Shown one piece after another: positions 7,757 to 47,578 of a DNA stretch of 47,578 nucleotides. The notes under the pieces are model-generated. The model was not told where the DNA came from, did no database searches, and was given only the letters and a program-made list of their open reading frames with translations. The translations under genes and the position numbers were made by a program. Source of the DNA: an uncultured Candidatus Poseidoniales archaeon (lineage in GTDB: Archaea; Thermoplasmatota; Poseidoniia; Poseidoniales; Thalassarchaeaceae). Positions within the stretch are counted from its first letter, which is position 1; each line of letters opens with the position of its first letter. The DNA lies in NCBI GenBank assembly GCA_902601345.1, contig CACKMK010000007.1, forward strand, positions 1 through 47,578, in the 5' to 3' direction.

Positions 7757-7990
7757 TCATATCGGGGTCCAGAATCCCAAAGCTCTAGCCACGCACCAAC
7801 CTGACCAACCTTCGAAGATAGCAAATGATCCCCCTCCAATCAGAGAGGCAGGGACCAGCCACATTGCGCCCACATCAATTCCCTGAACATAGAGGAAAGA
7901 AGCTGCGACAATTCCGACCAGGACTCCGAACGATCCCGAAATCAAGCGAAGGAATTTTCCCCTAGAGCCTATGTTGCACTCCAGTTTCAC
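7757..7990 (-). CDS. Small two-helix membrane protein, DUF2892-like
   Basis: This 77-residue protein opens with CNIGSRGKFLRL, has two hydrophobic helices (LISGSFGVLVGIVAASFLYV and AMWLVPASLIGGGSFAIF), and ends WCVARALGFWTPI. That resembles the DUF2892 inner-membrane domain, sometimes fused to rhodanese. No function is known. The frame is open back to 8062, but I chose GTG 7990 because a TATA box at 8011-8021 lies about 26 nt upstream, the spacing expected for a leaderless start. The longer version would begin three bases from the tRNA-Thr 3' end and add an asparagine-rich stretch unlike the family. Confidence 0.65.
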   Translation of the reverse strand: MKLECNIGSRGKFLRLISGSFGVLVGIVAASFLYVQGIDVGAMWLVPASLIGGGSFAIFEGWSGWCVARALGFWTPI

Positions 7991-8010
7991 AAGGAAATTA
8001 CTGTTGTTGT

Positions 8011-8021
8011 TATTTATAAAA
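8011..8021 (-). promoter_or_regulatory. TATA box for the small membrane protein at 7757-7990
   Basis: On the minus strand this reads TTTTATAAATA. Its centre is about 26 nt before the GTG at 7990, matching archaeal TATA-to-TSS spacing and implying a leaderless mRNA. It lies between tRNA-Thr and the gene. Confidence 0.6.
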
Positions 8022-8065
8022 TACTGTTTTTCAATATCAATAGTAGTATCTCTCCCTTCCATCTT

Positions 8066-8142
8066 TGGAGCCCCAGGAGGGATTCGAACCCCCGGCCGTC
8101 TGATTACAAATCAGATGCTCTACCAGGCTGAGCTACTGAGGC
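8066..8142 (-). tRNA. tRNA-Thr (anticodon UGU), CCA encoded
   Basis: Read on the minus strand: acceptor GCCTCAG pairs with CTGGGGC (one G-U pair). The anticodon stem TCTGA/TCAGA closes loop TTTGTAA, giving anticodon TGT. The T-arm contains GGTTCGAATCC. Discriminator U is followed by an encoded CCA at 8066-8068. Confidence 0.94.
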
Positions 8143-8230
8143 TTGCACTACGCTAAGACATCCTCCACTTGAACCCTCCACATTGGGAGATGTGGCAAGT
8201 TCTCATATCTCGTCATTCTGTCGAACACCC

Positions 8231-8635
8231 ATGGGCTCGAAACCCCGAGTCTCTAATCGCCAATTGAATACGATCATTTCTGCCTGGCTGTGCATCGCTA
8301 TCGGCTCCGGGCTCACCCTAAGCGACGGGTCTGCATTCTCCATCGGACTTTCAGCCCCTCTTTCAATCGGTGGGGTGATACTATTGATTGTGGGAATCGC
8401 CATGGGAAATGATGCCGATAATTCTCCCTTACACAAGGAGTGGGAACCATCGGCCATAGAGTTACGCGACGCAGGTAGGCCCATGTTCAGAATTGACACT
8501 ACCTTGGACAAGCCAATTAGAACATCGATACTATGTGGCAGATGTGCTGAGATAACCTGGATAGAGGGCAGGAAGCCCAAGACCTTCACATGCCCATCTT
8601 GCGGGGTCGATCTGTGGAATTCAGAAGAAGAGTGA
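8231..8635 (+). CDS. Hypothetical membrane protein with C-terminal zinc ribbon
   Basis: I do not recognise a named family. From ATG 8231 the protein has about 134 residues: two hydrophobic helices (about 16-32 and 43-60, the latter SIGGVILLIVGIAMG), then a soluble part ending in a zinc-ribbon-like CGRC...CPSC pair separated by about 17 residues. An upstream in-frame TTG at 8183 would add 16 residues lacking hydrophobic character, so ATG 8231 is preferred. It lies between divergent tRNA-Thr and pheS. A role in membrane-associated metal or nucleic-acid binding is only a guess. Confidence 0.6.
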   Translation: MGSKPRVSNRQLNTIISAWLCIAIGSGLTLSDGSAFSIGLSAPLSIGGVILLIVGIAMGNDADNSPLHKEWEPSAIELRDAGRPMFRIDTTLDKPIRTSILCGRCAEITWIEGRKPKTFTCPSCGVDLWNSEEE

Positions 8636-8672
8636 GCTAGGGAAGCCAATTATCGGCAACCGTCAAGTGTTA

Positions 8673-10196
8673 ATGACTTCTGGATCGAACGGAGACGTAG
8701 ATATGGATCTCGGAAACAATGAGCGTAGGATGCTACGGGCGATGCTAACCGACTCTACAAGGGAGTGGACTTTGGAACAAATTCTCTCAGAAACTGGCTG
8801 GGAAGACCAGGTCCACGTCGCCGGAGCAGGGAAGAAACTTGAGGAGCAGGGGTTGCTTGTATTGAGTGAGTCCTCATCTAGGATGGTTTCTCTGGGTGAT
8901 GAAGGCCAAAGAGCCTCTGAGAATGGTCTCCTGGAATCAAGACTATGGGACTGGATGTCGGAGTTAGAAGGTGAAAAAAGGACGATGAAGTCTCTGATGT
9001 CATCGGATTTTGAAAGAGCGGAAACTGGACCGGGGATAGGGATTCTGAAGGGTCTTGGTATTGATATAGAATCAGGCATTTTCATCATATCAGACGACTC
9101 GAAGATATCAAAAGAAATCGATAGAAGGTCTGAATTCATACTGTCTCTTTCAGAGGGCGAAGTTGAATCCTCTAACCTGGATTCAGAGATGCTATCTCAC
9201 TTCTCATCTAGAAGTGGATTGCTCGATTTCGAGGACGTAACCATAAGAACTTGGAAACTCACTAAACCCGGCTCTTCTTTGGACTCCTCCTCGTTGAAGG
9301 AGACCAAACTGATAGGCGAGGTGACGCCAGAAATGCTGCAGACCGAGTCATGGATAGGGGCGGAATTCAAGCCATTCGACGTAGAGGCACCTGCTCCCAT
9401 GCCAACAGGGGGCAGGAGGCACCCAATGCAGTCGCTTATCGAGCGGATCCGTTCGGTCTTCCTCGAGATGGGCTTCTCAGAGATAGAAGGAGACTACGTT
9501 CAATCAGCTGGCTGGAACATGGATTCGTTATTCATCCCCCAGTCTCACCCAGCAAGAACCATGCAAGACACATTCTATCTGAATCAGCCTAGAAATGTAG
9601 AAGTTGACCAGGAATACCTCGATCTATGGGCCAAGGTGCATGAGCACGGCCATGACACTGGTAGCAAGGGATGGGGGGGCTCCTTCGACAAAGAAGAGTC
9701 TCAGAGGGCCTTGCTAAGGACTCACACCACGGTTAACACCGTCAGGCACATCGCTGACAACCCCCACACTCCGTCCCGAGTTTTCGGAATCGGGAGGGTG
9801 TTCAGGCAGGAGACCATAGACAGAACTCATATGCCGGAGTTCCATCAAATAGAGGGAATAATCCACGAGCCCGATGCCAGCCTACCAATGCTAATTTCGA
9901 CCTTGAAGACCTTCTACTCAAAGATGGGATATCCAGATGTCAGAGTCAGACCTGCGTACTTCCCTTACACTGAACCAAGCGCAGAGGTCGACATACTCTG
10001 GAAGGGAGAATGGCTCGAGCTCGGAGGGTCCGGAATCTTCAGGCCGGAAGTTACAGAACCATTGGGTACCGAGTGGCCGGTATGCGCCTGGGGAATGGGC
10101 CTCGAGAGACTGGCGATGCTGGTCCTTGGTCTGGACGACATTAGGCAGCTGTATCAGCCAGACCTAGAGAGGCTGAGGAAGATGCCTCTGCTCTGA
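8673..10196 (+). CDS. pheS: Phenylalanyl-tRNA synthetase alpha subunit
   Basis: PheS is the catalytic subunit of the alpha2-beta2 enzyme charging tRNA-Phe. The N-terminal 200 or so residues form the winged-helix region typical of archaeal and eukaryotic alpha subunits (ERRMLRAML...WTLEQILSETGW). The class II catalytic core follows from about HPMQSLIERIRSVFLEMGF. Motif 2 is GRVFRQETIDRTHMPEFHQ, and motif 3 is GMGLERLAMLVLGLDDIRQLY at the C-terminus. The length of about 507 fits archaeal PheS. ATG 8673 is chosen over GTG 8667; ATG 8703 is also possible. The beta subunit gene is not next to it in this window. Confidence 0.95.
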   Translation: MTSGSNGDVDMDLGNNERRMLRAMLTDSTREWTLEQILSETGWEDQVHVAGAGKKLEEQGLLVLSESSSRMVSLGDEGQRASENGLLESRLWDWMSELEGEKRTMKSLMSSDFERAETGPGIGILKGLGIDIESGIFIISDDSKISKEIDRRSEFILSLSEGEVESSNLDSEMLSHFSSRSGLLDFEDVTIRTWKLTKPGSSLDSSSLKETKLIGEVTPEMLQTESWIGAEFKPFDVEAPAPMPTGGRRHPMQSLIERIRSVFLEMGFSEIEGDYVQSAGWNMDSLFIPQSHPARTMQDTFYLNQPRNVEVDQEYLDLWAKVHEHGHDTGSKGWGGSFDKEESQRALLRTHTTVNTVRHIADNPHTPSRVFGIGRVFRQETIDRTHMPEFHQIEGIIHEPDASLPMLISTLKTFYSKMGYPDVRVRPAYFPYTEPSAEVDILWKGEWLELGGSGIFRPEVTEPLGTEWPVCAWGMGLERLAMLVLGLDDIRQLYQPDLERLRKMPLL

Positions 10197-35332: not shown

Positions 35333-36214
35333 CTAGCCTATCCTTTCTCCCATCCATGTCTTCAGGTCATCGCCTAAATCTTCTCGTTGTAATGCGTGAT
35401 CTATCTGTGATTTTAACCAAGACAAGGGATTTCCACTGTCGTACATGCTAAATCGGTCTAACTTCACTGCGTGCAAGCCTCCATTTTCGATTAAGTGATT
35501 TAGTACCTCAATAGATTGCAACTCCCCGAACTCTGAAAGAGGGTACATTTCCAGTATTTCCCCGGTATTTTCAGGGAAAATGTATCTACCACACAGTACG
35601 TATTCGCTCGGAGCAGACTCGATGTCTGGCTTCTCCACGATACTCTTCACCTTTTCATCAGAAATCTCGACCACCCCGTAATTGCTAATCTCCTCTCTTG
35701 CCACTGGGCAGGCGCCAACTACCGGCAATCCAGATTGTGAAAACACGGAAACCAATTCGCTAGATGCATCTGAAGCATAACTCGTCCCTGAATGAAGCGG
35801 TCCCCAGTGTTCCTCCAACAACAACATGTCTCCAAGGAGTACGAGAAAAGGCCCCTCGACAGACTCGATTGCAGTAGATATGGCATCTGCAACCCCTCCG
35901 GGCCTTTTCTGAATGTGGGGGATTATTTCCAATCCTTTCAAACCCAGTCTAAGTGACTCTCTCGGCAGATCTGGCCTAATCTCGCCACCGTGTTGTTCTT
36001 CGTCAGATATGAAATCACTGAGAAACTCGTGTTTCCTTTCGGAAAGTACTAGGTGAACCCTAGACACTCCGGCCTTGGCAACTTCCCAGATTAGATGATT
36101 GATGATAGGGGTATCTACGAGGGGCATGGTTTCCTTGGGAATGAAAAGACTAGCGGGTAGCATCCTAGTCCCGCTCCCTCCGGCAAGAATGACCGCATCT
36201 TCCACCTTCGCCAT
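35333..36214 (-). CDS. galU: UTP-glucose-1-phosphate uridylyltransferase type nucleotidyltransferase
   Basis: This is a GT-A fold sugar nucleotidyltransferase. The N-terminal signature is DAVILAGGSGTRMLPASLFIPKETMPLVD, with VILAGGSGTRMLP and the PKETMPLVD lysine; further motifs are RPGGVADAI near residue 107, the metal aspartate in LVLLGDML near 126, and the downstream SIVEKPD. These match GalU, which makes UDP-glucose, better than RmlA. ATG 36214 gives 293 residues; GTG 36226 would add four. A TTTATTG element about 30 nt upstream may be the TATA box. It opens the polysaccharide region. Other NTP/sugar specificities cannot be excluded. Confidence 0.82.
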   Translation of the reverse strand: MAKVEDAVILAGGSGTRMLPASLFIPKETMPLVDTPIINHLIWEVAKAGVSRVHLVLSERKHEFLSDFISDEEQHGGEIRPDLPRESLRLGLKGLEIIPHIQKRPGGVADAISTAIESVEGPFLVLLGDMLLLEEHWGPLHSGTSYASDASSELVSVFSQSGLPVVGACPVAREEISNYGVVEISDEKVKSIVEKPDIESAPSEYVLCGRYIFPENTGEILEMYPLSEFGELQSIEVLNHLIENGGLHAVKLDRFSMYDSGNPLSWLKSQIDHALQREDLGDDLKTWMGERIG

Positions 36215-36287
36215 GTTATTCGCCACACATCAGCCCCTTTCAATAAAGCGCCAAAACAGGAAGTATTCAATTCCATGAGGTGGTAAA

Positions 36288-37007
36288 GTGAAAAGCCCAA
36301 GGTACACGCCAAAGGCAATGGAACCGGTAACAGTCATTGTTCCGGTTAAGGACGAAGAAGTTGGGCTAAACTTCCTACTGGAGGATTACGGGCGGTCGAC
36401 TTTGAAAGATCTTTACGATATCCGGTTCTTGTTCGTCATCGACGTTAGAACCAGTGACTCTTCAAAGAAAATCGCATCAAAGTTTTCTGACAATATTATC
36501 GACCAACAAAAAACAACGGGAAAGGGCTCTGCCATGAGTCAGGCAATCGAAAAATGGAAGCTTAACCCAACTTCGAAGGTCGTTTTTCTGGATGCAGATG
36601 GATCTTACTCGTTTGAATCTGTAATTAGGATACTCGAGGCTCTGGAAAGTGGAGCTGATGTGGTTTCGGGCTCAAGATTCTTGTCCATGGGAGGCAGGCC
36701 AAGAGGCATGAGTAGGCTACATAATTTTGGAAATAGGGCCCTATCAAAGATTTCTAGCATACGAAACTCCAGAAGGATATCCGATCTCTGTACTGGACTC
36801 TGGGGATTCAATTCTGAGGCTTTGATGGCAATGGACATAAAATCCAGGGGTTTTGACTTAGAAGCCGAATTGGCGGGTCTGGCCAGGAGAAAAGGACTCG
36901 ATCACGTCGAAGTTCAGGTCGATTGGAGTCAGAGGAAGGGGGGGACCAGTAAATTGAGATCATTGACCGACGGACTAATCATTTTCCTCAGAATTATCAG
37001 GACATAG
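36288..37007 (+). CDS. Family 2 glycosyltransferase (dolichyl-phosphate sugar synthase-like)
   Basis: This is a soluble GT2 enzyme of 239 residues. VTVIVPVKDEEVGLNFLL near residue 13 is the nucleotide-binding strand. DVRTSDSSKKIA, TTGKGSAMSQAI near 75 and the DXD-like FLDADGSYSFE near 92 complete the active site; VVSGSRFL and GFDLEAELAGLARRKG follow. This layout is that of dolichyl-phosphate mannose/glucose synthases or polyprenyl-phosphate sugar transferases. No membrane helices are seen. GTG 36288 is preferred because GAGGTGG (about 36276-36282) lies just upstream; ATG 36318 is the alternative. Its 3' end overlaps the convergent acetyltransferase gene by 11 bases. Confidence 0.82.
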   Translation: MKSPRYTPKAMEPVTVIVPVKDEEVGLNFLLEDYGRSTLKDLYDIRFLFVIDVRTSDSSKKIASKFSDNIIDQQKTTGKGSAMSQAIEKWKLNPTSKVVFLDADGSYSFESVIRILEALESGADVVSGSRFLSMGGRPRGMSRLHNFGNRALSKISSIRNSRRISDLCTGLWGFNSEALMAMDIKSRGFDLEAELAGLARRKGLDHVEVQVDWSQRKGGTSKLRSLTDGLIIFLRIIRT

Positions 37008-37620
37008 CCCCAAAGTAACCTGTCACAGTCTCGTTTGGATTTATCATGGAATTCGGTCCAATCAACGCTCCGGGATTTGTTACTGAATTACAACCAATCT
37101 GACTCCCATCTCCTACTAGTGCACCCATCTTTCTCAGATTAGTTTGTACTCTTTCTCCGTTCAACAGTCTGACTGACACCAGTCCCCTATCATTTCTAAC
37201 ATTAGATATTTTCACCCCCGCACCAAGATTTACATTAGCTCCGATAATTGAGTCGCCAACATAGTTGAAGTGCGGAGCCTTCGCACCGGGAAGCAGAAGA
37301 GAATTCTTAATTTCGGAAGAATTTCCGACTACTGAATCGTTGCATATCCAACTCCCTCCCCTCAAGTAGGCACCATGTCTGATCACTACGTTCGGACCTA
37401 TGTAGCATGGCCCTTCAATCACAGCACTTTCTGCTACAATTGCATCGGGATGGATGAAAATCGAATCATCCCCTCGATTTATTGTTCGGATTTGCTCACT
37501 TAGTAAGGACCCATTATTGTGTCCAAGAATCTCCCAGGGTGAGTTTTCGTCATTCCATTTTGGAATTTTGACACCTACTAATCCATCCAAGCATGGAAAT
37601 ATGGTACGAAGTAATGTCAT
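36997..37620 (-). CDS. Left-handed beta-helix acetyltransferase, GlmU C-terminal-like, without pyrophosphorylase domain
   Basis: This 207-residue hexapeptide-repeat protein has a coil region (about residues 55-200) matching the GlmU acetyltransferase half: KAPHFNYVGDSIIGANVNLGAG corresponds to the acetyl-CoA/GlcN-1-P site block, followed by KMGALVGDGSQIGCN. The N-terminal uridylyltransferase domain of GlmU is absent, leaving a short variable N-terminus (LDGLVGVKIPKWNDENSPWEILG). Probably a GlcN-1-phosphate N-acetyltransferase acting after GlmS, which is divergent and adjacent. The GalU-like enzyme or one outside the window could supply the nucleotidyl transfer. An acetyltransferase for another amino sugar is possible. 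Confidence 0.75.
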   Translation of the reverse strand: MTLLRTIFPCLDGLVGVKIPKWNDENSPWEILGHNNGSLLSEQIRTINRGDDSIFIHPDAIVAESAVIEGPCYIGPNVVIRHGAYLRGGSWICNDSVVGNSSEIKNSLLLPGAKAPHFNYVGDSIIGANVNLGAGVKISNVRNDRGLVSVRLLNGERVQTNLRKMGALVGDGSQIGCNSVTNPGALIGPNSMINPNETVTGYFGAMS

Positions 37621-37720
37621 ATTCGTCGGAATGTGTTATTGGCGATAAACTGTTTTCCGTTAATTATCCTGGTCAATCATTTTCCAATAGATAACTTGTG
37701 GATAATTCCGGGGTGGTTTT

Positions 37721-37730
37721 GAAATATAAA
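37721..37730 (+). promoter_or_regulatory. TATA box for glmS
   Basis: GAAATATAAA is centred about 23 nt before the glmS ATG at 37749, consistent with a leaderless or near-leaderless transcript. The 128-base region shared with the divergent acetyltransferase gene is otherwise A/T-rich without an obvious repeat. Confidence 0.55.
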
Positions 37731-37748
37731 TGGCTTAGCGCGTAAAAC

Positions 37749-39569
37749 ATGTGCGGGATTTTTGGGTGCATTTCTGATGACGCCTCCGCAATAGTCCTGG
37801 AGGGCCTAAGAAAACTAGAGTACAGGGGGTACGACTCTGCCGGTCTAGCAGCGATTTTCCCTGAACATAAAGGTCCGATTCAGACCGAAAGGACCACTGG
37901 TTTCGTCTCCGATCTGGTCTCGAAGGCAAATGGCAGATTTAATGGAGCTGAGATTTCCATCGGTCACACTAGGTGGGCCACACATGGCGGTGTTACCGAT
38001 TCGAACGCGCACCCACACTCCAGCAACGATGGGGATATCACAATTGTACACAATGGAATAATCGAAAACGCCTCAGATCTTCTCGAGAGGGTGCAGAACC
38101 TAGGCTATTCTGTTTCTTCAGAAACTGATTCAGAGGTTATTGTACATCTCCTAGACCATGAAATAAAGACCCAGCCTTCTAAATCAAACCCCCTCGATGC
38201 GTTCACCAAGATAATCCAGATGCTGGAAGGATCCTGGGCTATCGCTGCAATAATGAATGGGATGGAGGGAATCCTCCTCGCCAGGAACGGTGCTCCTTTG
38301 ATTGCAGGCCGAGGGCACGATTGCGTTTGTGTATCCTCGGATGTACAACCATTCTATGGGACATGTTCTGAGGTAGCATACCTAAACGATGGGGACGTCT
38401 TCTTACTGACCGAAAACGGGATTACATCTACTGACTCGGCCATGGCCCCTGATTTCGAATTGTTGGAAGGGACTTACGAAGAACAGAACCCAGGCAGATT
38501 TGAACATATGATGATGAAGGAAATCTTCGATCAACCAATTTCACTATCCAACGCAATGAGCGGGAGAATTTCTGCAGACGGAATAAACATAGAATTGGGA
38601 GGTTTTACAATGTCGAGAAAAGAAATATCTTCTCTAGATAGGATAAACATCGTCGCATGCGGTTCAGCTTACTATGCATCTCTTGTCGGCGTGGATTTCC
38701 TCAGAAAATTCACGAATATAACGGTCGAAGCCTTTCGAGCCAGTGAATTCCCTGCTAAGTCGGTGTGCAGCAAAAGAACACTGACCATAGGAGTGAGTCA
38801 ATCGGGAGAGACTAAGGATACTTTGGATGCACTCCAGAAAGCAAAATTGTATGGTAGCAATATTTCTTCCATCTGCAATGTCATTGGCTCAACGATGTCA
38901 AGAATCACAGGAAACGGAGCATACCTACATGCAGGCCCTGAGTACGCGGTTGCATCCACTAAAGCCGTAAGCAACATGATAATTTCATTCGCACTTCTGG
39001 CACTATCTTTGTCAGAAAAACCTAGTCAAAATAACAAATTAATTTCTGAAATGAGAAGACTACCAAGCCGAGTTACTAAGCAACTTCTGGAAGACGACGG
39101 CTCAATCCAAAGGGCGGTAGAAGTAATTGCTGGTTCAAAATCAGCCATCTTCATCGGCAGGGGTATCTCCGCGCCTTTGACTCAGGAAGGGGCACTGAAA
39201 ATGATGGAGGTAGCATATCTCCCATGTGTAGCTTATCCGGGAGGAGAACTTAAGCACGGGCCCATTGCATTGATTGAAGACGGGACTCCAGTAATCGCAA
39301 TCGCCCCTACCGATAGTACTCTTTCACTGATGGAAACGAGCATCAGGGAATGTAAATCAAGAGGAGCCCGAATAATCTTGATTACGGATTCCGATGGGCA
39401 TCTGACAGAGATTGCGGACGTAGTCATATCCACACAGACAACACACCCAATGCTATCTCCGATAATCAATTTAATTCCCCTCCAGTTGCTGGCCTACCAC
39501 CTCGGAATATTCACTGGTAATAACGTGGACAGGCCGCGCAATCTAGCGAAGTCGGTCACTGTGGTTTGA
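37749..39569 (+). CDS. glmS: Glutamine--fructose-6-phosphate aminotransferase
   Basis: GlmS makes glucosamine-6-phosphate, the entry to UDP-GlcNAc. The N-terminal nucleophile amidotransferase begins MCGIFGC (Cys2), with EYRGYDSAG near residue 27, GHTRWATHGG near 75 and NGIIENASDL near 99. The two SIS domains follow: CGSAYYASLVG near 305, GVSQSGETKDTLDAL near 347 and the C-terminal ELKHGPIALIEDG near 495 and DRPRNLAKSVTV. The length of 606 is normal. Its stop region overlaps the convergent Nudix gene by 14 bases. Confidence 0.97.
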   Translation: MCGIFGCISDDASAIVLEGLRKLEYRGYDSAGLAAIFPEHKGPIQTERTTGFVSDLVSKANGRFNGAEISIGHTRWATHGGVTDSNAHPHSSNDGDITIVHNGIIENASDLLERVQNLGYSVSSETDSEVIVHLLDHEIKTQPSKSNPLDAFTKIIQMLEGSWAIAAIMNGMEGILLARNGAPLIAGRGHDCVCVSSDVQPFYGTCSEVAYLNDGDVFLLTENGITSTDSAMAPDFELLEGTYEEQNPGRFEHMMMKEIFDQPISLSNAMSGRISADGINIELGGFTMSRKEISSLDRINIVACGSAYYASLVGVDFLRKFTNITVEAFRASEFPAKSVCSKRTLTIGVSQSGETKDTLDALQKAKLYGSNISSICNVIGSTMSRITGNGAYLHAGPEYAVASTKAVSNMIISFALLALSLSEKPSQNNKLISEMRRLPSRVTKQLLEDDGSIQRAVEVIAGSKSAIFIGRGISAPLTQEGALKMMEVAYLPCVAYPGGELKHGPIALIEDGTPVIAIAPTDSTLSLMETSIRECKSRGARIILITDSDGHLTEIADVVISTQTTHPMLSPIINLIPLQLLAYHLGIFTGNNVDRPRNLAKSVTVV

Positions 39570-40050
39570 TTCCAAAATCACCGACGAAGAACTCCTTCGT
39601 CCTCTCATGCACCCTGGCGTCTTCGATAATTTCTTGAAGATTGAACCATCGATATTCTTTATGCTGGATTTGAGGTAGTTTTGCCAAATCCAATTCGCAG
39701 TCCTCGAGAACCATGGCGATTGAAACATAATGAGAACCAATCTCGTCAGAGAAAGCGGAATCATCATACATGTGCTCAAAGACTCCTTGGAATTCAGCAT
39801 CTTCTATCTCAACCGACAAACCCAACTCGTTATTGGCAACTCTTCGAAATGCAGCTCCGAGTTTTTCCATCCTCCTTATCCTGCCACCCGGTACAAACCA
39901 ATGGCCCATAGCAGGCCGATTCTCTCGATTACCGAGAAGAATGGCTCCGTCAGAGTTTCGAACCAGCAAATCGATTGAAACCAATGGAAGATGTGAAACG
40001 GAAGCAGTGAATTCTTTTTCTCCTATCATCGCTCCATCAGACATTTTCAC
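39556..40050 (-). CDS. gmm: Nudix hydrolase, GDP-mannose mannosyl hydrolase type
   Basis: This Nudix-fold protein has the altered box of the Gmm subfamily: GGRIRRMEKLGAAFRRVANNELG carries the first glutamate, but the usual REUxEE is RVANNE, as in GDP-mannose mannosyl hydrolases. The N-terminal LVSIDLLVRNSDGAILLGNRENRPAMGHWFVPGG is also typical of Gmm. It would release mannose and GDP from GDP-mannose and limit flux to the GDP-6-deoxy sugars made by its neighbours. Its start overlaps the stop of the ColD-type gene (ATGA), so it belongs to the fcl-colD-gmm operon. Confidence 0.82.
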   Translation of the reverse strand: MKMSDGAMIGEKEFTASVSHLPLVSIDLLVRNSDGAILLGNRENRPAMGHWFVPGGRIRRMEKLGAAFRRVANNELGLSVEIEDAEFQGVFEHMYDDSAFSDEIGSHYVSIAMVLEDCELDLAKLPQIQHKEYRWFNLQEIIEDARVHERTKEFFVGDFGIKPQ

Positions 40051-41210
40051 CCTTCCATGAATTCTCTGACCAGTTCCGATATCTTCTCGATATCGGCGGA
40101 GATATCATAGTGATGGTTGCCGAAGAAAAGCCCGTTATCATGCGCATGGTCAGCGACTTCAAGATTACCGTGTTTTTCGTGATCCATAATCTCAATAACA
40201 GGATTTCTAACAAAATTTCCCGCTACTATTGGCCTGACCTCTACTCCTGCCCCTTTCAGTAAAGAAACTAATTCGGCCCTATTTGCGCCATTTTCAATGA
40301 TCATTGAGAAGCCAAACCAACTTGATTCTCCAACTTCTTTCTGGATTCTGAGACCATTAATCCCAGAGAAACAACTCTGGAAGGCCCGAGCATTTCTCCT
40401 CCTGCCCTCAACTATGTTATCCAATTTCCTCAATTGTGACTGCCCTATCGCACCGGACATCTCCAATGGTCTGAGATTATATCCTGGGAGAATGAATCTA
40501 AATGACTCCATGAATTCATCATCAGATTTAGTTGTGATTAGATTGTCTTTCGGAAGCCCTCTTGTCCAACCGTGAGCCCTCATTGATATCATCAATTGGT
40601 ACAACTCTTCGCAGTCCGTCACGGTTATGCCGCCTTCCATCGTCGAAATGTGGTGACTGAAAAAAGAACTGAATGTTCCTGCGACACCAAAGGTTCCAGC
40701 ATACCTTTTCTCGAATTTAGCACCCATAGACTCGCAATTATCCTCAACAAGAATCAATGAGTTATTCTGGCAAATTTCCTGAAGTCTTTCGAAATTAATT
40801 GGGTTTCCGAGGAGATTTACTGCAAAGACCATCTTTGTCTTATCTGTAATTGCTCTTTCCAACTCATCCAAGTCCAAATTAAGCGTATCCCGATCGATGT
40901 CAACGAACTTCATCTTCAATCCGTATTGGTGTAGGGGGTAGTAGGTTGTCGACCAGGACACAGCTGGGACTATGACTTCGTCACCCACAGAGATGTGGTG
41001 CCGCTTAGAATGTATTAGGGCGGCAATTGCCAATAGATTTGCCGACGAACCAGAATTGGACATCACAGCGTAATTAGATCCGAAAAATTTAGCGAAATCA
41101 CTCTCGAATGCCTCGACTTCCGGACCCATAGTAAATCGATTAGATTCTATAACTCTCTGAATGGACTCATACTCCTCTTGGTCCCAAGAACTTGTGGCAA
41201 GAGGAAGCAT
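40047..41210 (-). CDS. colD: ColD-type GDP-4-keto-6-deoxymannose 3-dehydratase (His in place of PLP Lys)
   Basis: This is a DegT/DnrJ/EryC1-fold PLP enzyme of 387 residues. The position of the Schiff-base lysine is occupied by histidine: SFFSHHISTMEGG, with H186-H187. This is the hallmark of the 3-dehydratases ColD and E1 (RfbH) rather than sugar aminotransferases. ColD removes the C3 hydroxyl of GDP-4-keto-6-deoxymannose on the way to GDP-colitose. Blocks RAHGWTRGLP, LPGYNLRPLEMSGAIG, ESSWFGFSMII and NGLFFGNHHYD also fit ColD as I remember it, and the length matches ColD (about 388). ATG 41210 overlaps the upstream stop (TGATG); the frame runs to 41282 but that part is not homologous. Confidence 0.83.
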   Translation of the reverse strand: MLPLATSSWDQEEYESIQRVIESNRFTMGPEVEAFESDFAKFFGSNYAVMSNSGSSANLLAIAALIHSKRHHISVGDEVIVPAVSWSTTYYPLHQYGLKMKFVDIDRDTLNLDLDELERAITDKTKMVFAVNLLGNPINFERLQEICQNNSLILVEDNCESMGAKFEKRYAGTFGVAGTFSSFFSHHISTMEGGITVTDCEELYQLMISMRAHGWTRGLPKDNLITTKSDDEFMESFRFILPGYNLRPLEMSGAIGQSQLRKLDNIVEGRRRNARAFQSCFSGINGLRIQKEVGESSWFGFSMIIENGANRAELVSLLKGAGVEVRPIVAGNFVRNPVIEIMDHEKHGNLEVADHAHDNGLFFGNHHYDISADIEKISELVREFMEG

Positions 41211-42127
41211 CAAATCCACGCATCCAAGAAATAAGAATAAGTCTTCCCAATTGCTTCTCTCGTATCTGTCGGGGGGGACCAACCGAGACTTTTTTGTTTG
41301 CTGACATCCACCAACTTTTGCCTCATTCCAACGGGCTTGGATAGATCGAATTCAAAATTACCTAAGTATCCGATTTCTTCTGCAATCATCTGGTAATATT
41401 CCTTTACGGTGAAATCGAAACCTAATCCTACATTTACCTCCTGTGGTATAGAGCTATACTCAGAAAGTGCGAAACAGATGAAAACAGCTAGATCAGAAGC
41501 GTACATGAACTCTCTCCTGGCACTTCCATCGCCCCAAATTTTAATGCTGTCCTTTCCAGAATTCTTGTGTAAATGCATTCTATGAATTACTCCCGGAATG
41601 AGGTGCGCCTTTTTCAAATCAAAATCATCATATTTTCCAAACAGATTACATGGAATCATTGTTTTGAAATCAGTTCCGAATTGACTGTTTGAGTACTTAC
41701 ACAGTCTGGAAACAGCGATCTTTGCAATAGCATAACCCTCATTGGTCGGTTCTAATGGCCCGGATAGGATCGAGTCTTCTGTTAGCGGGTTCTCACCCTC
41801 TTTAGGATACATGCACGAACTTCCAAGATTGATAAACTTCTCAACACCATTTTCGAGACAGGAATTTACGATATTCGAACCCATAAAGATATTCTGTAGT
41901 GCGAAATCATACGGGCGTTCGATATTCGCATGAATGCCTCCGACCAGTCCAGCACAGTGAATTACTGCATCCGGCTTCAGGCGTGAAAAAAAACTAGCGA
42001 CCTCATCCTGTTTAGTCAAGTCAAGCTCCTCCTGTTTGGGAGAGATAGTTTCAATTCCTAATGAATTCAGTTTTTCCCTCAAATTGCTTCCAACCATACC
42101 GGAACCCCCGGTAACAAGAACCTTCAT
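41210..42127 (-). CDS. fcl: GDP-L-fucose synthase / GDP-L-colitose synthase-like epimerase-reductase
   Basis: This short-chain reductase-type NAD(P) enzyme has GGSGMVGSNL at residue 7, the catalytic serine in LGSSCMYPKEG near 106 (with the adjacent cysteine used for epimerisation), the YxxxK pair in EGYAIAKIAVSRL near 135, and the histidine in KKAHLIPGVIHR near 178. These are the catalytic residues of WcaG, which epimerises C3/C5 and reduces C4 of GDP-4-keto-6-deoxymannose. Because its stop overlaps the ColD-type gene, it may instead (or also) act as ColC, turning the 3-deoxy intermediate into GDP-L-colitose. Sequence alone leans to fucose synthase. The length of 305 is normal. Confidence 0.82.
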   Translation of the reverse strand: MKVLVTGGSGMVGSNLREKLNSLGIETISPKQEELDLTKQDEVASFFSRLKPDAVIHCAGLVGGIHANIERPYDFALQNIFMGSNIVNSCLENGVEKFINLGSSCMYPKEGENPLTEDSILSGPLEPTNEGYAIAKIAVSRLCKYSNSQFGTDFKTMIPCNLFGKYDDFDLKKAHLIPGVIHRMHLHKNSGKDSIKIWGDGSARREFMYASDLAVFICFALSEYSSIPQEVNVGLGFDFTVKEYYQMIAEEIGYLGNFEFDLSKPVGMRQKLVDVSKQKSLGWSPPTDTREAIGKTYSYFLDAWI

Positions 42128-42242: not shown

Positions 42243-43313
42243 ATGAAGAAGGCACTTATTACCGGAGTGACAGGACAAGATGGGTCATATCTGGCAGAAC
42301 TCCTCCTCGAAAAGGGATACGAAGTTCACGGAATAAAGAGAAGATCCAGTTCTTTCAACACAGATCGTATCGACCATATTTTCCAAGACCCTCATGAAGG
42401 AGAGCCTCGCTTTTTCCTACATTATGGCGATCTTACGGATTCTTCTAATCTGATTCGAATCGTCAGAGAAGTAGAACCCGATGAGATTTACAATCTCGGT
42501 GCCCAAAGTCACGTTGCCGTTAGTTTCGAAAGTCCCGAGTATACAGCAAATGCCGATGCACTTGGAGCTCTTAGACTCCTGGAGGCGATTCACTTTTTAG
42601 GGCTTGAAAATAAGTGTCGATATTATCAAGCTAGTACATCTGAACTCTTTGGAAAGGTTTTGGAGACTCCACAAACCGAGAAAACTCCTTTCTACCCGAG
42701 AAGTCCGTACGCAGTTGCTAAACTTTACGCATATTGGATTGCAATAAATTATCGGGAAGCATATGGGATTTACGCTTGTAACGGAATTTTGTTTAATCAC
42801 GAAAGCCCTAGGAGGGGTGAGACCTTTGTCACCAGAAAGATAACTAGGGGACTTTCTAGAATTTCAGTTGGCTTAGAAGAATGCCTTTATCTCGGAAATT
42901 TGGACTCGTTAAGGGATTGGGGGCATGCACGAGATTATGTCGAAATTCAGTGGCTTATGCTTCAGCAGGAAGAGCCCGAGGACTTCGTAATTGCCACAGG
43001 AAGACAAGAATCAGTAAGGACCTTTGTCGAGTTAACTGCTAAACGCCTTGGCTTTGGAATAAATTGGAAAGGCAAGGGGGAAGGGGAAGTTGGAATTAGA
43101 GATGATACAGGAGAAGTTGTAGTCAGAATAGATCCTCGTTATTTCAGACCTACTGAGGTGGAAACACTGCTTGGAGACCCTTCAAAAGCAGAACTAAAAT
43201 TGGGATGGTCTCCAAAAATATCACTCGAAGAAATGGTATCAGAAATGGTGGATCATGATTTAGAAATGGCCAAACAAGAGAAAATCATAATCGAGAGAAA
43301 AGAATCTGAATAA
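42243..43313 (+). CDS. gmd: GDP-mannose 4,6-dehydratase
   Basis: Gmd converts GDP-mannose to GDP-4-keto-6-deoxymannose, the branch point for fucose and colitose. The protein begins [29 protein letters not shown], the diagnostic Gmd N-terminus with [10 protein letters not shown]. It continues with [24 protein letters not shown], the catalytic threonine/glutamate in QASTSELFG near 132, and [15 protein letters not shown] holding the YxxxK pair near 157. [16 protein letters not shown] and [11 protein letters not shown] follow. The length of 356 is normal. Start ATG 42243. It is divergent from fcl-colD-gmm. Base composition is A/T-rich relative to housekeeping genes upstream. Confidence 0.96.
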
Positions 43314-43371
43314 ATCAAGATAGAAATATTAAATCAATACCAGTTTACAAATCAACCTGTAGGTGTTACGA

Positions 43372-45174
43372 ATGACCGACGAAACCTCTCTTTTCGAGAA
43401 TATATTGCGGTATAGTTCTATCACTCCAGTAAATGACAATAACATAGACATGCAACCGGATATTTCATTCTCGTCTCCAAATCACGAAATTTTTCATGAT
43501 TCTTTACTCTCAATTCTTAATTCAAATTCCAATAAATCCAAGAGTATTATCTTTTCAACAAACAGAATTATCAACGGAAAAAGGAGAGCTACAGGAGGAT
43601 TTGCTGACAGGTTTAAGGGCCTTGCTTCTGCAATATTGTGGTCTATTGGGGCCGGAAGATCGTTCAAACTAGATTGGACGCACCCATTTAATTTAGACCA
43701 AATTTATGATTTTCCTTTTGCTCGGGTCGAAAACAAGGGAGAACTTCGTACACTGGACCTCATTGATAAAAACAGGATTGAAAATCTACCCATAATTAGT
43801 GAAAAGGGTATTCTTTCGTTTACCCCCGAAGATGATGATATAATATTTCACTCGAATAATCCCATGATAGAACTGCTGAAAATAAATGATATTCGAGAGA
43901 AATTTCCCGATGTAGATTTTGATCAAGAAGGTCAGCCAGGACAGATAGGAAATAGAGAGTTGATGTCTTCCATTTTGTCAATTTTCAAACTACTTCCCGA
44001 TGAAAAAGAAACAAATTTCTTGTCTTCTTTCATTAAATTAAAACAGGATTTTCAAACCACGGTAGGACTCCAATTTAGAACTGGTGGAGATGGTGAATGG
44101 CGGGATCCGGATTGGGGAGATCCGAAGGACATTAGTAGATTAATCGAAGAAATTGAAAAAAAATTGCCCCAGAATGATGGCAAATCTCTTCTCTATCTGG
44201 CAACAGATTCAAATAAAGCTAAAGAGATTCTACTACAACTCAATCATTCAAGATTCAGATTACTATGCTCCAACGGGCCCATCGCGCACATGGACAGATC
44301 ATCTGGAGATATGGCTATCCAGGGGTCCAGATTCGCAATAATTGAAAACCACCTGTTGAGTCATTGTGACAAGATATATACTGTACATGGGGGCTTTGCG
44401 AAACTTGCCGGTGATAGGGCAAACAAGCCTATAACTAGAATAAATCTCAAAAAAATAGAGTCACCAAGTCAGAAAACCCTAATCAATGTCAAGGAAAAAA
44501 CCCTTCTTAGGAATAACCTAATGAGCGAAAAACTATTTTCTGAAGAAAACAAATTTCTCTACATAGGAGTTCCCAAAGCAGCTACGAGATCAATTTTGTC
44601 CATATTGAGGAGGGATACATTCGCAACTTCGGAATTTAATGAACCAATCTCTTTTCACCTAGACAAAAATCCTTCTCACAAAAATCTCTTTATTTTCTCA
44701 TTTGTCAGGAATCCCTGGTCAAGGGTTGTATCAACTTGGAAGAACAAGGTCGCAAACTCAAATGAAGGAGCTTCAAGGGTTATAATAGATAGATTCGAGG
44801 AATTATACCATAATATGCCCTTTGAGGAGTTTGTAAATTTTGTCTGCAACTCGGAATCAGGGAATGATTTGCTCGGAGACAGACATTGGACCTCGCAAAA
44901 TCTTTTCTTGAAAGACACAGATGGGAACCTAGTACCCGATTTTATTGGAAGATTAGAGAATCTGGAAGAAGATTTCTCTCACGTACTTACAAGAATCGGA
45001 ATCGATGACATATCTCTACCTTGGCTAAACACTAGAAGGGGTTGGAAATCAGATTCGAAGACAATGAAAAAAGACTCTCAGTATTATTACAGAGAATTTT
45101 ACTCTCCAGATTTAGAAAGTATGGTTTCAGAACGATATAAGGACGATATCTCATATTTTAATTATGAATTTTAA
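43372..45174 (+). CDS. Fusion: fucosyltransferase-like GT-B domain plus carbohydrate sulfotransferase domain
   Basis: This is a 600-residue two-domain protein. Residues about 45-365 resemble NodZ/FUT8-type fucosyltransferases: TGGFADRFKGLASAILW, GRSFKLDW, then TVGLQFRTGGDGEW, LLYLATDSNKAKEIL and a final ENHLLSHCDKIYTVHGGFAKLA. Residues about 393-600 form a sulfotransfer_2 (HNK-1/chondroitin-type) domain: the PAPS 5'-phosphosulfate loop YIGVPKAATRSIL, the 3'-phosphate loop FVRNPWSRVVSTW, and DRHWTSQNLF...DFIGRLENLEEDF. The sulfotransferase assignment is good; the fucosyltransferase one is by motif pattern and less sure. It follows gmd directly. ATG 43372 with AGGTG upstream is preferred over GTG 43363. 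No membrane helix is visible. Confidence 0.65.
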   Translation: MTDETSLFENILRYSSITPVNDNNIDMQPDISFSSPNHEIFHDSLLSILNSNSNKSKSIIFSTNRIINGKRRATGGFADRFKGLASAILWSIGAGRSFKLDWTHPFNLDQIYDFPFARVENKGELRTLDLIDKNRIENLPIISEKGILSFTPEDDDIIFHSNNPMIELLKINDIREKFPDVDFDQEGQPGQIGNRELMSSILSIFKLLPDEKETNFLSSFIKLKQDFQTTVGLQFRTGGDGEWRDPDWGDPKDISRLIEEIEKKLPQNDGKSLLYLATDSNKAKEILLQLNHSRFRLLCSNGPIAHMDRSSGDMAIQGSRFAIIENHLLSHCDKIYTVHGGFAKLAGDRANKPITRINLKKIESPSQKTLINVKEKTLLRNNLMSEKLFSEENKFLYIGVPKAATRSILSILRRDTFATSEFNEPISFHLDKNPSHKNLFIFSFVRNPWSRVVSTWKNKVANSNEGASRVIIDRFEELYHNMPFEEFVNFVCNSESGNDLLGDRHWTSQNLFLKDTDGNLVPDFIGRLENLEEDFSHVLTRIGIDDISLPWLNTRRGWKSDSKTMKKDSQYYYREFYSPDLESMVSERYKDDISYFNYEF

Positions 45175-46369
45175 TCGTAGGACAAAAAAAATCAAATCTT
45201 TCCAACAGCATAAAGTCATACCTTTTAATGGACAAACTATGAATGGAATTGAGGCTTCACAAATCGCAGGCTGGATCTGCTTCTCTATACTTTCAATCAC
45301 CACAATTAGATTCTATCTTATCACTGCCTCCAAAAGGAAAATCCCTAATCCGGAGAAATTTCCATCTAATCAACGGATTTTGGCCGTTCTTGCCTTTAGA
45401 AATGAAGAACTAACAATAAAAAAATCACTACCTCGGGTGCTGAGTGAAACTCTTTCCGATAAGAATTGTAAGTTGGTTCTAGTCAACTCTGCATCTAATG
45501 ACGGTAGTGTGGAGGCAATATTGGAAACAATTGCCGAATCAGGCTTGGAAGCAGACTCTTGGTGCCTCATAAATTCGGATAAACCAGGAAAGGGAAGAGC
45601 TCTAAATATGGCAATGTCAAACTACGTTGATGGGGATATTGTGATAATGATAGACGCGGATGCCTTGATACAAAAGGGCTCATTTGGAACTTTTAGGAAA
45701 TTTATGTCCAATGAAGAAATTGGTGCCATCTCAGCTCAGGAATCAATTCGCCCCGAAGACCCCATGTCCGAATACAAAACGCGTTCCAATGAACTCAGAC
45801 AGTTTGAAAGCTCCTCTGGGCAATGCCCTATTCTTGAGGGAAGCTTGTTGGCATGGTCTCCATCTAGAATTGAATGGTCTTCATTTGATGAGAGTTCTAA
45901 CGCCGATGACGCACAGATAGCCCTTTGTTCAATTCGTTCCGGCCATAAGAGTCATGTAACTTCAGAAATAAAATTTACCAGTTTAAGGGACTCTAAAAAG
46001 GCCAGTTTTCAGAGATCAGTTCGTAGATCGCAGGGCTTGAATTTACAACTTCTCAGGAATATAGATATTTTCTGGGACCCCTCTTGCCGTCGATTCCGCT
46101 CGACTTTCTTTTTCAACATAATATTGCATTGCATTATTCCTTGGTGTGTTATATTCCTCCTATTCTCGCCTCTAATAATTATTCAGTATCCCGAATTTAC
46201 CGAATTGAATCCTAATTCTTATTCAATGGTGCCTTCATTAATTATTTTTATTTCATTATTCTCAAAGACGGGAAGATCCCTTCTTAGGGGGTCCCTTGCT
46301 TCAATTCTCGGACAACTCCGAGTATTGTTAAGAATGAGGGCCAGCCATTGGGAACCAGGTGAAGGATGA
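45164..46369 (+). CDS. Membrane-associated family 2 glycosyltransferase
   Basis: This processive-type GT2 has an N-terminal membrane helix (about residues 33-55), a catalytic domain with ILAVLAFRNEELTIKKSLP, VNSASNDGSVEAI, DKPGKGRALNMAMS and the metal motif MIDADALI near 170, then EGSLLAW, a NADDAQIAL acceptor motif and RRSQGL (the QxxRW-like position) before two or three C-terminal helices. The layout is that of hyaluronan/cellulose-synthase-related transferases. The first ATG (45164) overlaps the fusion gene by 11 bases; ATG 45239 would remove a basic leader of 25 residues. It overlaps the ABC permease start (ATGATGA). Confidence 0.8.
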   Translation: MNFNRRTKKIKSFQQHKVIPFNGQTMNGIEASQIAGWICFSILSITTIRFYLITASKRKIPNPEKFPSNQRILAVLAFRNEELTIKKSLPRVLSETLSDKNCKLVLVNSASNDGSVEAILETIAESGLEADSWCLINSDKPGKGRALNMAMSNYVDGDIVIMIDADALIQKGSFGTFRKFMSNEEIGAISAQESIRPEDPMSEYKTRSNELRQFESSSGQCPILEGSLLAWSPSRIEWSSFDESSNADDAQIALCSIRSGHKSHVTSEIKFTSLRDSKKASFQRSVRRSQGLNLQLLRNIDIFWDPSCRRFRSTFFFNIILHCIIPWCVIFLLFSPLIIIQYPEFTELNPNSYSMVPSLIIFISLFSKTGRSLLRGSLASILGQLRVLLRMRASHWEPGEG

Positions 46370-47193
46370 TGAAGGCTTCATCTGGACTGGAAGAAAACAC
46401 ACCCATGGTATTAACGAGAAAGGAAAGAAAGCCAGGAAGTGGACTAATTTCTGGAAATCTTTCTGCCGGTCTAAAGCTCGGCTACAGAAACTTCACCAAA
46501 CCCCATCTCTCCTACAGGCTAGGACTCCTTTGGGTGGTGCTTGATCCCCTACTCAGGGCAATTGTATTCTCTTTCCTTATGATCGTGATCAGGGGCAATA
46601 CCTCTCCTGAATCGCTTGTAATTGGTGTGTTTACAATCTATGCGTTAAACAACTCAATTTCTTCTTCAATGAATCTCAGACTATCTGCTGAACCGTTCCC
46701 TCTTAGCCACACTCCATCATCGACGATGATTGTTTCCAAAATCACATCTGACATACTTAATTCCATTTTCTTAGGCCTTTCTAGCGCAATTATTCTGATC
46801 CTTATTGTTGAAATGCCGATAATCCTAGTTCTGGTTCTGCCAATATCTTGTATCGCACTTTCATTAATTGGTTCAGGAGTTGGATTGTTGCTTTCACCAA
46901 TAGTGATGATTGTCAAAGATATAAGTAAGATAATCAGTTACCTACTTCTACTGAGCTTTTTCCTCCAATGCGTACTTTATCCTTATTCAGATACTGAGGG
47001 ACTTCATAGAGTTGTTCTCTCGTGGCTTCCTCATACTATTTTCGTCGAATGGGCGAGATCTGCTTCATCTGGAAATCAATATCCTTTCTCAATCCAACAT
47101 GCATTCTCAACCCTATTTCTATGGGCATTTCCTATGTTTTACGGATTTTTCAGATTCAACCAATACCGATGGAGGTCAACAACATGGTCTTAA
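46366..47193 (+). CDS. wzm: ABC-2 type polysaccharide export permease (Wzm-like)
   Basis: This is a 275-residue integral membrane protein with six or so helices. The N-terminal cytoplasmic region ends with SYRLGLLWVVLDPLLRAIVFSFLM, matching the amphipathic entry and first helix of O-antigen ABC-2 permeases (typically LGxLWxxxxP). A late amphipathic YPYSDTEGLHRVVLSWLPHTIFVEWAR corresponds to the family's periplasmic segment (NP..h/xx.R). The AAGGATGATG start region overlaps the previous stop. Together with the ATPase that follows it would export a lipid-linked glycan. Family assignment is by topology and the N-terminal block; specificity is inferred from neighbours. Confidence 0.82.
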   Translation: MMKASSGLEENTPMVLTRKERKPGSGLISGNLSAGLKLGYRNFTKPHLSYRLGLLWVVLDPLLRAIVFSFLMIVIRGNTSPESLVIGVFTIYALNNSISSSMNLRLSAEPFPLSHTPSSTMIVSKITSDILNSIFLGLSSAIILILIVEMPIILVLVLPISCIALSLIGSGVGLLLSPIVMIVKDISKIISYLLLLSFFLQCVLYPYSDTEGLHRVVLSWLPHTIFVEWARSASSGNQYPFSIQHAFSTLFLWAFPMFYGFFRFNQYRWRSTTWS

Positions 47194-47578
47194 TTTCAAT
47201 TAGCAATCTATCACTTGCTTATGACGGGTTAAGGATTGCAAACGCTTTCAGATTTCCCGAAAGACTTAGGTTCAAAGCATTGGAAATCGATGATTTTACA
47301 GTTAGAGACGGAGAAATTTTAGCATTAATGGGCCATAACGGCGCGGGAAAATCTACTTTACTGAATGCAATTGCAGGAAAAATGAGGCCCAGCGAGGGCT
47401 CAATTAGAGCCAAAGGAACCATTATCCATCTTTCTAGCGTAGATCCAGGTTTTGACCCAAATCTTTCTCCCCGGCAAAATCTTCATTGGCTTTCAAAAAT
47501 TTACGCATGTGACTCTGACAGAGTAATTTCATCCGTCGAAGAATTCTCAGAAATCGGAGAAGCGTTCGACCGTCCAAT
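47184..47578 (+). CDS. wzt: ABC transporter ATP-binding protein, polysaccharide export (Wzt-like), 3' end cut off
   Basis: This is the N-terminal 131 residues of an ABC ATPase. The Walker A is LMGHNGAGKSTLL near residue 50; the Q-loop region falls around SSVDPGFDPNLSPRQNL, which is the pattern of Wzt/TagH-type ATPases. ATG 47184 overlaps the permease stop by 10 bases and follows GGAGG at 47171-47175 with good spacing. Walker B, the signature motif and any C-terminal carbohydrate-binding domain lie beyond the window. Confidence 0.9.
   Translation, partial: MVLISISNLSLAYDGLRIANAFRFPERLRFKALEIDDFTVRDGEILALMGHNGAGKSTLLNAIAGKMRPSEGSIRAKGTIIHLSSVDPGFDPNLSPRQNLHWLSKIYACDSDRVISSVEEFSEIGEAFDRP

Follow-up and report, generated by a model that had tools for sequence, protein, structure and literature searches.

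Gene content of the locus

The window analysed here, a stretch of 47,578 nucleotides, is one entire contig of a 1.18 Mb draft genome (G000) that comprises 37 contigs and is 63.7% complete. Near its end lies a gene in which a NodZ-type domain is joined to a Sulfotransfer_2 domain in a frame uninterrupted over 1.8 kb (Table 1); an alternative GTG start at 43363, three codons upstream of the ATG, would lengthen the frame to 603 codons. The gene lies 58 bases downstream of gmd and near a homologue of fcl, an arrangement that an earlier note on this DNA had described correctly. No membrane-type stretch was detected in the protein (the best 19-residue hydropathy mean is 0.93), and a sequence search with its full length against solved structures gave no match. 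Exporters of O-antigen and teichoic acid are found, alongside other ABC proteins, among the solved relatives of the ABC ATPase at the contig end.

Table 1. Predicted features of the locus, in positions of the window
Feature	Position	Strand	Basis or remark
Nudix hydrolase, GDP-mannose mannosyl hydrolase type	39556..40050	-	NF011963, 154 bits vs cut-off 146
ColD homologue, GDP-4-keto-6-deoxymannose 3-dehydratase	40047..41282	-	solved relatives; start codon uncertain, longest frame overlaps fcl homologue
fcl homologue, GDP-fucose synthase or GDP-colitose synthase type	41210..42127	-	PDB relatives
gmd, GDP-mannose 4,6-dehydratase	42243..43313	+	TIGR01472, 592.8 bits vs cut-off 415
Fusion gene, NodZ-type + Sulfotransfer_2	43372..45174	+	ATG to stop, 600 codons
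N-terminal extension, residues 1-69, ahead of NodZ profile match	43372..43578	+	
NodZ/FUT8-superfamily glycosyltransferase domain, residues 70-371	43579..44484	+	NodZ profile, tblastn, fold model
Donor-site motif VGLQFR (231-236)	44062..44079	+	alignments
Sulfotransfer_2 domain, residues 388-599	44533..45168	+	profile search
5'-phosphosulfate loop VPKAATRS (400-407)	44569..44592	+	
3'-phosphate loop RNPWSRVVS (446-454)	44707..44733	+	
Family 2 glycosyltransferase	45164..46369	+	overlaps fusion gene's end by 11 bases
ABC-2 type permease	46366..47193	+	PF01061, E 1.2e-7
ABC transporter ATPase	47022..47576	+	frame start uncertain; cut by contig end

The fusion is known from a single occurrence, in a draft genome that is 64% complete and split into 37 contigs, as might be the case if the genes of two organisms had been joined during assembly. 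Several properties of the DNA argue against such a chimera: GC content and third-position GC differ little between the two sides of the junction (0.379/0.352 and 0.363/0.355), the GC of both halves fits the surrounding island, which is lower in GC than the rest of the window, the frame stays open and the next gene overlaps its end, and an equal gene order, unfused, occurs in phages (see below). The misjoin that the earlier note had considered left no sign, and we hold a chimera to be highly unlikely.

The sulfotransferase half

The C-terminal half matches Sulfotransfer_2 (PF03567) with 91.9 bits (E 9.5e-26) against a gathering threshold of 22, over positions 4-252 of the 252-position profile, and contains both PAPS loops; residues R446-S454 of the 3'-phosphate loop lie within FSFVRNPWSRVVS. 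In an alignment of 11 rows with stand-alone relatives, 18 columns are invariant, and K402, S407, H429, R446, P448, R451, S454, H505 and Q509 are among the residues kept in 11/11 rows, the invariance of H429 being less sure since the alignment around it is gapped. Because a profile built from these 11 rows found no sulfotransferase in the PDB, the assignment relies on the Pfam match and the loops. These data support the prediction of a complete PAPS-dependent-type sulfotransferase domain, as the earlier note had proposed.

Most of the relatives found for this half are frames of about 190-280 aa that hold a single domain. Among the sequences compared, the nearest are short phage and bacterial sulfotransferases, not the stand-alone ones of its own order; they share the full profile and the PAPS loops with the fusion, whose domain in contrast makes up half of 600 aa. 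A search of 292 genomes of the order with the whole protein matched 12, the own genome included, and the other 11 gave 12 matches, with the sulfotransferase half, in frames of 224-255 residues. In one genome (G223), two more sulfotransferase-like frames, recognized by eye, adjoin a stand-alone sulfotransferase (L039:4971-5822 and 7987-8892).

The NodZ-like half

Single-sequence searches with the N-terminal half gave marginal scores. Pfam NodZ (PF05830) was matched with 11.7 bits (E 0.11), under its gathering threshold of 28.3, and the sole phmmer match in the PDB was NodZ itself (2hhc, E 0.98). No single-sequence match is confident, yet the similarity exceeds chance. All of the 10 records matched by tblastn among 72,556 plasmid records are annotated as NodZ (residues 64-335, best E 0.009), and a HMMER profile of seven NodZ rows, built without the window protein, matched residues 70-371 with 46.7 bits (E 2.4e-13), while none of 2000 shuffled sequences exceeded 7.7 bits and none of 261 decoy ORFs exceeded 16.1. 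An hhalign comparison with seven NodZ-family proteins gave 96.1% probability over residues 229-346. The Pfam cut-off is passed by a stand-alone family member (L024, 64.1 bits) and by a phage protein (L095, 53.2 bits).

An AlphaFold model of residues 55-386, for which phage members of the superfamily had been aligned in 13 rows, reached a pTM of 0.59 and a mean pLDDT of 56.8; the second Rossmann half scored 54-91 per ten-residue block and the first half mostly <50. All of the best 50 Foldseek matches listed were FUT8, plant FUT1, NodZ or POFUT1. Among the matches listed by VIA-align, 43/50 were FUT8, plant FUT1, NodZ, POFUT1 or POFUT2 (Z 10.0-15.1), led by FUT8 at 15.1, FUT1 at 14.3, NodZ at 13.3, POFUT2 at 11.7 and POFUT1 at 10.8; the best row outside the superfamily was a UDP-GlcNAc 2-epimerase (Z 8.4), and unrelated GT-B folds did not exceed 8.4. 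Predicted viral proteins gave 14 matches at E <=0.001, several of which are named fucosyltransferases, including two from Synechococcus phages. Because the rows supplied to AlphaFold come from the superfamily, the model and the claim of homology are not independent of each other. A single-sequence model (pLDDT 33.5) was set aside. Profile and model together support assignment of the N-terminal half to the NodZ/FUT8/FUT1/POFUT superfamily with a predicted GT-B fold, the kind of fold that the earlier note had expected.

Among the closest characterized counterparts is the alpha-1,6-fucosyltransferase NodZ (PF05830; 2hhc, 3six), which the fusion resembles in fold (Z about 13) and in the profile match over residues 70-371, and whose gene likewise lies beside gmd in Mesorhizobium. 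The fusion differs from NodZ in its low identity (about 22-24%), its score under the Pfam cut-off, a Gln in place of His, and the attached sulfotransferase. FUT8, plant FUT1 and FUT4, and POFUT1/2 belong with it to the GT-B fucosyltransferase superfamily by fold, at 10-16% identity in structural alignment. These enzymes are eukaryotic and act on other acceptors, and none of them is known to carry a sulfotransferase domain.

The residues of the putative donor site bear on whether this half is still a transferase. R236 is the counterpart of Arg in the HxR donor motif and is invariant across all rows of two alignments (A3, A8), whereas Gln234 stands where NodZ and FUT8 have His (FUT8 His363), and the region of FUT8 Ser469 reads Gly-Gly; both His363 and Ser469 are counted among the catalytic residues of FUT8 in PMC11468063. 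These replacements, the score under the Pfam cut-off and the want of a close relative in the searched genomes would suit a domain that has lost its transferase activity and whose only role is to position the sulfotransferase by binding a glycan or nucleotide. The retention of R236, the Gln that plant FUT4 also has at the His position of the motif (GIQIR) and the operon neighbour gmd speak for an active transferase, and we consider loss of activity improbable. Of the NodZ/FUT8-like domain claimed in the earlier note, superfamily membership has held up (46.7 bits with the profile, Z 10-15, R236), whereas the Pfam cut-off is not reached and the motif His is replaced by Gln.

Apart from itself, the N-terminal half matched 7 of 389 genomes of the phylum at E 0.1, and these matches were judged to be chance. 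Six of the frames were read by eye: one resembles a repeat-rich surface protein, one a papain-type protease and one an RNA polymerase subunit, two look phosphoesterase-like and are related to each other, and the sixth is short. The seventh (L023) has 41 residues and contains a stop. Another candidate, L017, scored similarly to NodZ in pairwise comparison, but this was the top score among 389 genomes, and the match is confined to query residues 15-180.

NodZ-sulfotransferase gene pairs in phages

Among phage contigs of IMG/VR, a NodZ-type gene is followed directly by a Sulfotransfer_2 gene in 11 of 16 loci found via NodZ, against 3.0 expected from the share of sulfotransferase ORFs in each locus. 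The set comprised 17 loci; L165, where the contig breaks off within the gene, was excluded. The pairs (L149, L160, L161 and others) have the same families, strand and order as the fusion, and often the stop of the first gene touches the ATG of the next. The phage proteins are encoded by separate genes, unlike the fusion, and the NodZ-type ones, when aligned, share 15-17% identity with the N-terminal half of the fusion; the NodZ-type gene of L095 matches Pfam NodZ at E 2.7e-14, and the phage sulfotransferase matches Sulfotransfer_2 at E 6.5e-16. With one locus per 90% cluster, 4/7 pairs were observed against 1.3 expected (P 0.028), a figure that depends on the cluster representative; of the close relatives L153 and L154, for example, only the latter has a sulfotransferase next.

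An initial set of 80 loci had been chosen by sulfotransferase, and the search was therefore redone starting from NodZ; in the initial set, 7 loci have a NodZ-type ORF, which abuts a sulfotransferase in 5/7. In five other NodZ-type loci (L166-L170), the NodZ-type gene is not immediately followed by a sulfotransferase gene, and a search of phage records with L095 gave no match. Since the phages are related and their clusters are rich in sulfotransferases, the pairing counts as support and not as proof. It nevertheless shows that the association of NodZ-type and sulfotransferase genes is not peculiar to this contig, and the loss of one stop codon could turn a phage-type pair into such a fusion. 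From the company that these phages keep we infer that they are marine. Their contigs (L149-L164, L069-L148) hold dense gene clusters in which several sulfotransferase genes, and also NodZ-type genes, occur.

The phage clusters also bear on whether the two halves share a substrate. They might act on different sugars of the same glycan, the fusion merely keeping two tailoring enzymes together: the phage sulfotransferases lie beside genes of many kinds and make up 0.14-0.27 of the other ORFs per locus, 5/16 NodZ-type genes have something else next, and the sequence does not fix the acceptor of the sulfotransferase. This reading accords less well with the excess of the NodZ-type to sulfotransferase order over expectation in both counts given above, and with the rhizobial precedent, in which NoeE sulfates C3 of 2-O-methylfucose after fucosylation by NodZ (PMC5080398). 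We regard separate target sugars as possible but rather unlikely. The Nod factor route, in which a fucose is attached and then sulfated, is also a nearer parallel than fucoidan, a comparison from the earlier note that found no support; it differs from the fusion in employing two separate proteins and a lipo-chitooligosaccharide acceptor.

Distribution of the fusion

The survey of genomes for the same architecture, which the earlier note had suggested, placed the fusion in G000 only. No second NodZ-sulfotransferase fusion was found in 318 genomes of the order, 389 of the phylum or 385 of the alphaproteobacterial class (overlapping samples drawn from one genome collection), and no ORF of the 80 viral loci fetched via sulfotransferase is both NodZ-type and sulfotransferase. 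Among the order and phylum genomes, a full-length NodZ-type match was obtained in G000 and G106 only, the frame in G106 having 397 residues. At E 0.001, the NodZ-type profile matched 53/318 order genomes, with the full profile covered only in G000 and G106, whose sequences are by construction part of the alignment behind it. The other 51 matches were rejected on their coverage, which is confined to positions 8 to 66 of 329; two similar matches, L025 and L027, were recognized by eye as CTP synthase.

The alphaproteobacterial class was included for a Micavibrio sulfotransferase that is among the nearest relatives of the C-terminal half and lies about 4.4-6.4 kb from fcl and gmd. Full-length NodZ-type matches occur in 4/385 genomes of this class, in frames of 347-400 residues; a search of the Micavibrio genome itself found no NodZ-type gene. 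In that draft genome, the sulfotransferase, a mannose-1-phosphate guanylyltransferase-like gene (recognized by eye), fcl and gmd lie within 7 kb (L015:2939-9911).

Searches of open-licence PMC papers brought up no fucosyltransferase-sulfotransferase fusion, in agreement with the earlier note, which knew of no protein of this architecture. Other fusions are reported in PMC6418280 for the sulfated fucan genes of one brown alga, namely a fucokinase-pyrophosphorylase and a sulfotransferase domain joined to a hydrolase. The combination looks new, while both domain families and the two-step chemistry are known separately.

Sugar nucleotide genes and the donor

The best solved relatives of the fcl homologue are GDP-L-fucose synthases (E 7e-72); its score with the GDP-L-fucose synthase model NF047922 is 317 bits, under the cut-off of 500, and the product may be either Fcl or ColC. 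For the ColD homologue, the best four solved relatives are ColD/WbdK, over nearly the full length (E 1.2e-142 to 5.8e-141), whereas the next-closest solved PLP sugar enzyme follows at E 7e-48. Read by eye, the protein contains SFFSHHIS, which may include the His that ColD has in place of the aminotransferase Lys. Because the homologue is by far closest to ColD, GDP-colitose is probably made at the locus, and since gmd and the fcl and ColD homologues nearby would provide GDP-6-deoxyhexoses, the donor sugar is no less likely to be colitose than fucose.

A genome of the same genus (G106) shares the backbone of the locus, with identities over the long matches of 63% for the NTP transferase, 59% for the family 2 glycosyltransferase (GT2), 71% for glmS and 70% for gmd. 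In G106, the island after the backbone holds homologues of fcl and Gmm together with a NodZ-family gene that stands alone, and tblastn with the window's ColD homologue and sulfotransferase found no match in 22 kb of this genome (L171, L041). As the G106 island lacks a ColD match, the donor may be fucose in one genome and colitose in the other. Positions 35333-39569 of the window (NTP transferase, GT2, glmS) are syntenic with G106 (L171), and the content differs after glmS. Judging from these comparisons, the locus is a glycan island of variable content at a fixed position.

Proposed function

We regard the fusion as real, so far single, and composed of two known families whose joint function is credible from sequence and model. 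The observed domain identities, intact frame, PAPS loops and neighbouring genes are compatible with a bifunctional enzyme that would transfer a deoxyhexose and then sulfate the new or an adjacent sugar before export, a reading that we favour as the somewhat probable one and in which catalysis, donor, order of steps, acceptor and export are all presumptive. The gene product would be a cytosolic two-domain enzyme. Its GT-B domain would move a 6-deoxy-L-hexose from GDP-L-fucose or GDP-colitose onto a growing glycan, and the C-terminal domain would next move sulfate from PAPS to the new sugar or its neighbour. Sulfation would precede the exit of the glycan via the ABC exporter encoded two genes downstream.

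A more specific scenario is speculative and, taken as a whole, unlikely: one archaeal polypeptide might add colitose (3-deoxy-L-fucose) and sulfate its O-2 or O-4, so that the surface glycan of a planktonic archaeon would bear a sulfated 3,6-dideoxyhexose. In this scenario the fusion would derive from a phage-type abutting pair, which would point to phages and marine archaea exchanging genes for glycan tailoring.

If active as in the favoured bifunctional reading, the protein would offer a ready-made bifunctional enzyme for making sulfated deoxyhexoses and a way into the surface chemistry, so far little known, of this uncultured group of marine archaea. Its occurrence as a fusion, together with the abutting genes of phages, connects fucosyl-type transfer with sulfation more closely than proximity of genes would by itself, and suggests that phages carry the same two-enzyme module. 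The step is a modest one, given that the domains and the chemistry are known separately.

Supply of PAPS

Genes for PAPS synthesis, which the earlier note had thought worth looking for in the organism, were recovered in part: an APS kinase scores over the cut-off in 19/28 genomes of the genus, whereas none was matched in the 64% of G000 that is recovered. ATP sulfurylase (PF01747) and CysD (TIGR02039) were matched in 0/28 genus genomes, G000 included. According to PMC6864105, cysD, cysN and cysC have been reported in MGIIb of Marine Group II, and the PAPS was suggested to feed sulfotransferases; the count of 0/28 for CysD fits awkwardly with that report, if G000 belongs, as we infer, to MGIIb. 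This placement draws on genome size (about 1.4 Mbp according to the abstract of the same paper), on a chaperonin of the Cpn60/TCP-1 family in G223 that looks archaeal by eye, and on the APS kinase. In G098, the APS kinase gene adjoins a CysQ gene over cut-off (TIGR01331), whose product would remove PAP. In most genus genomes, the APS kinase forms the first half of a protein of ~300-360 residues, and in G098 (L038:2588-3532) the second half is a cytidylyltransferase-like nucleotidyltransferase; this protein might be an unusual PAPS synthase.
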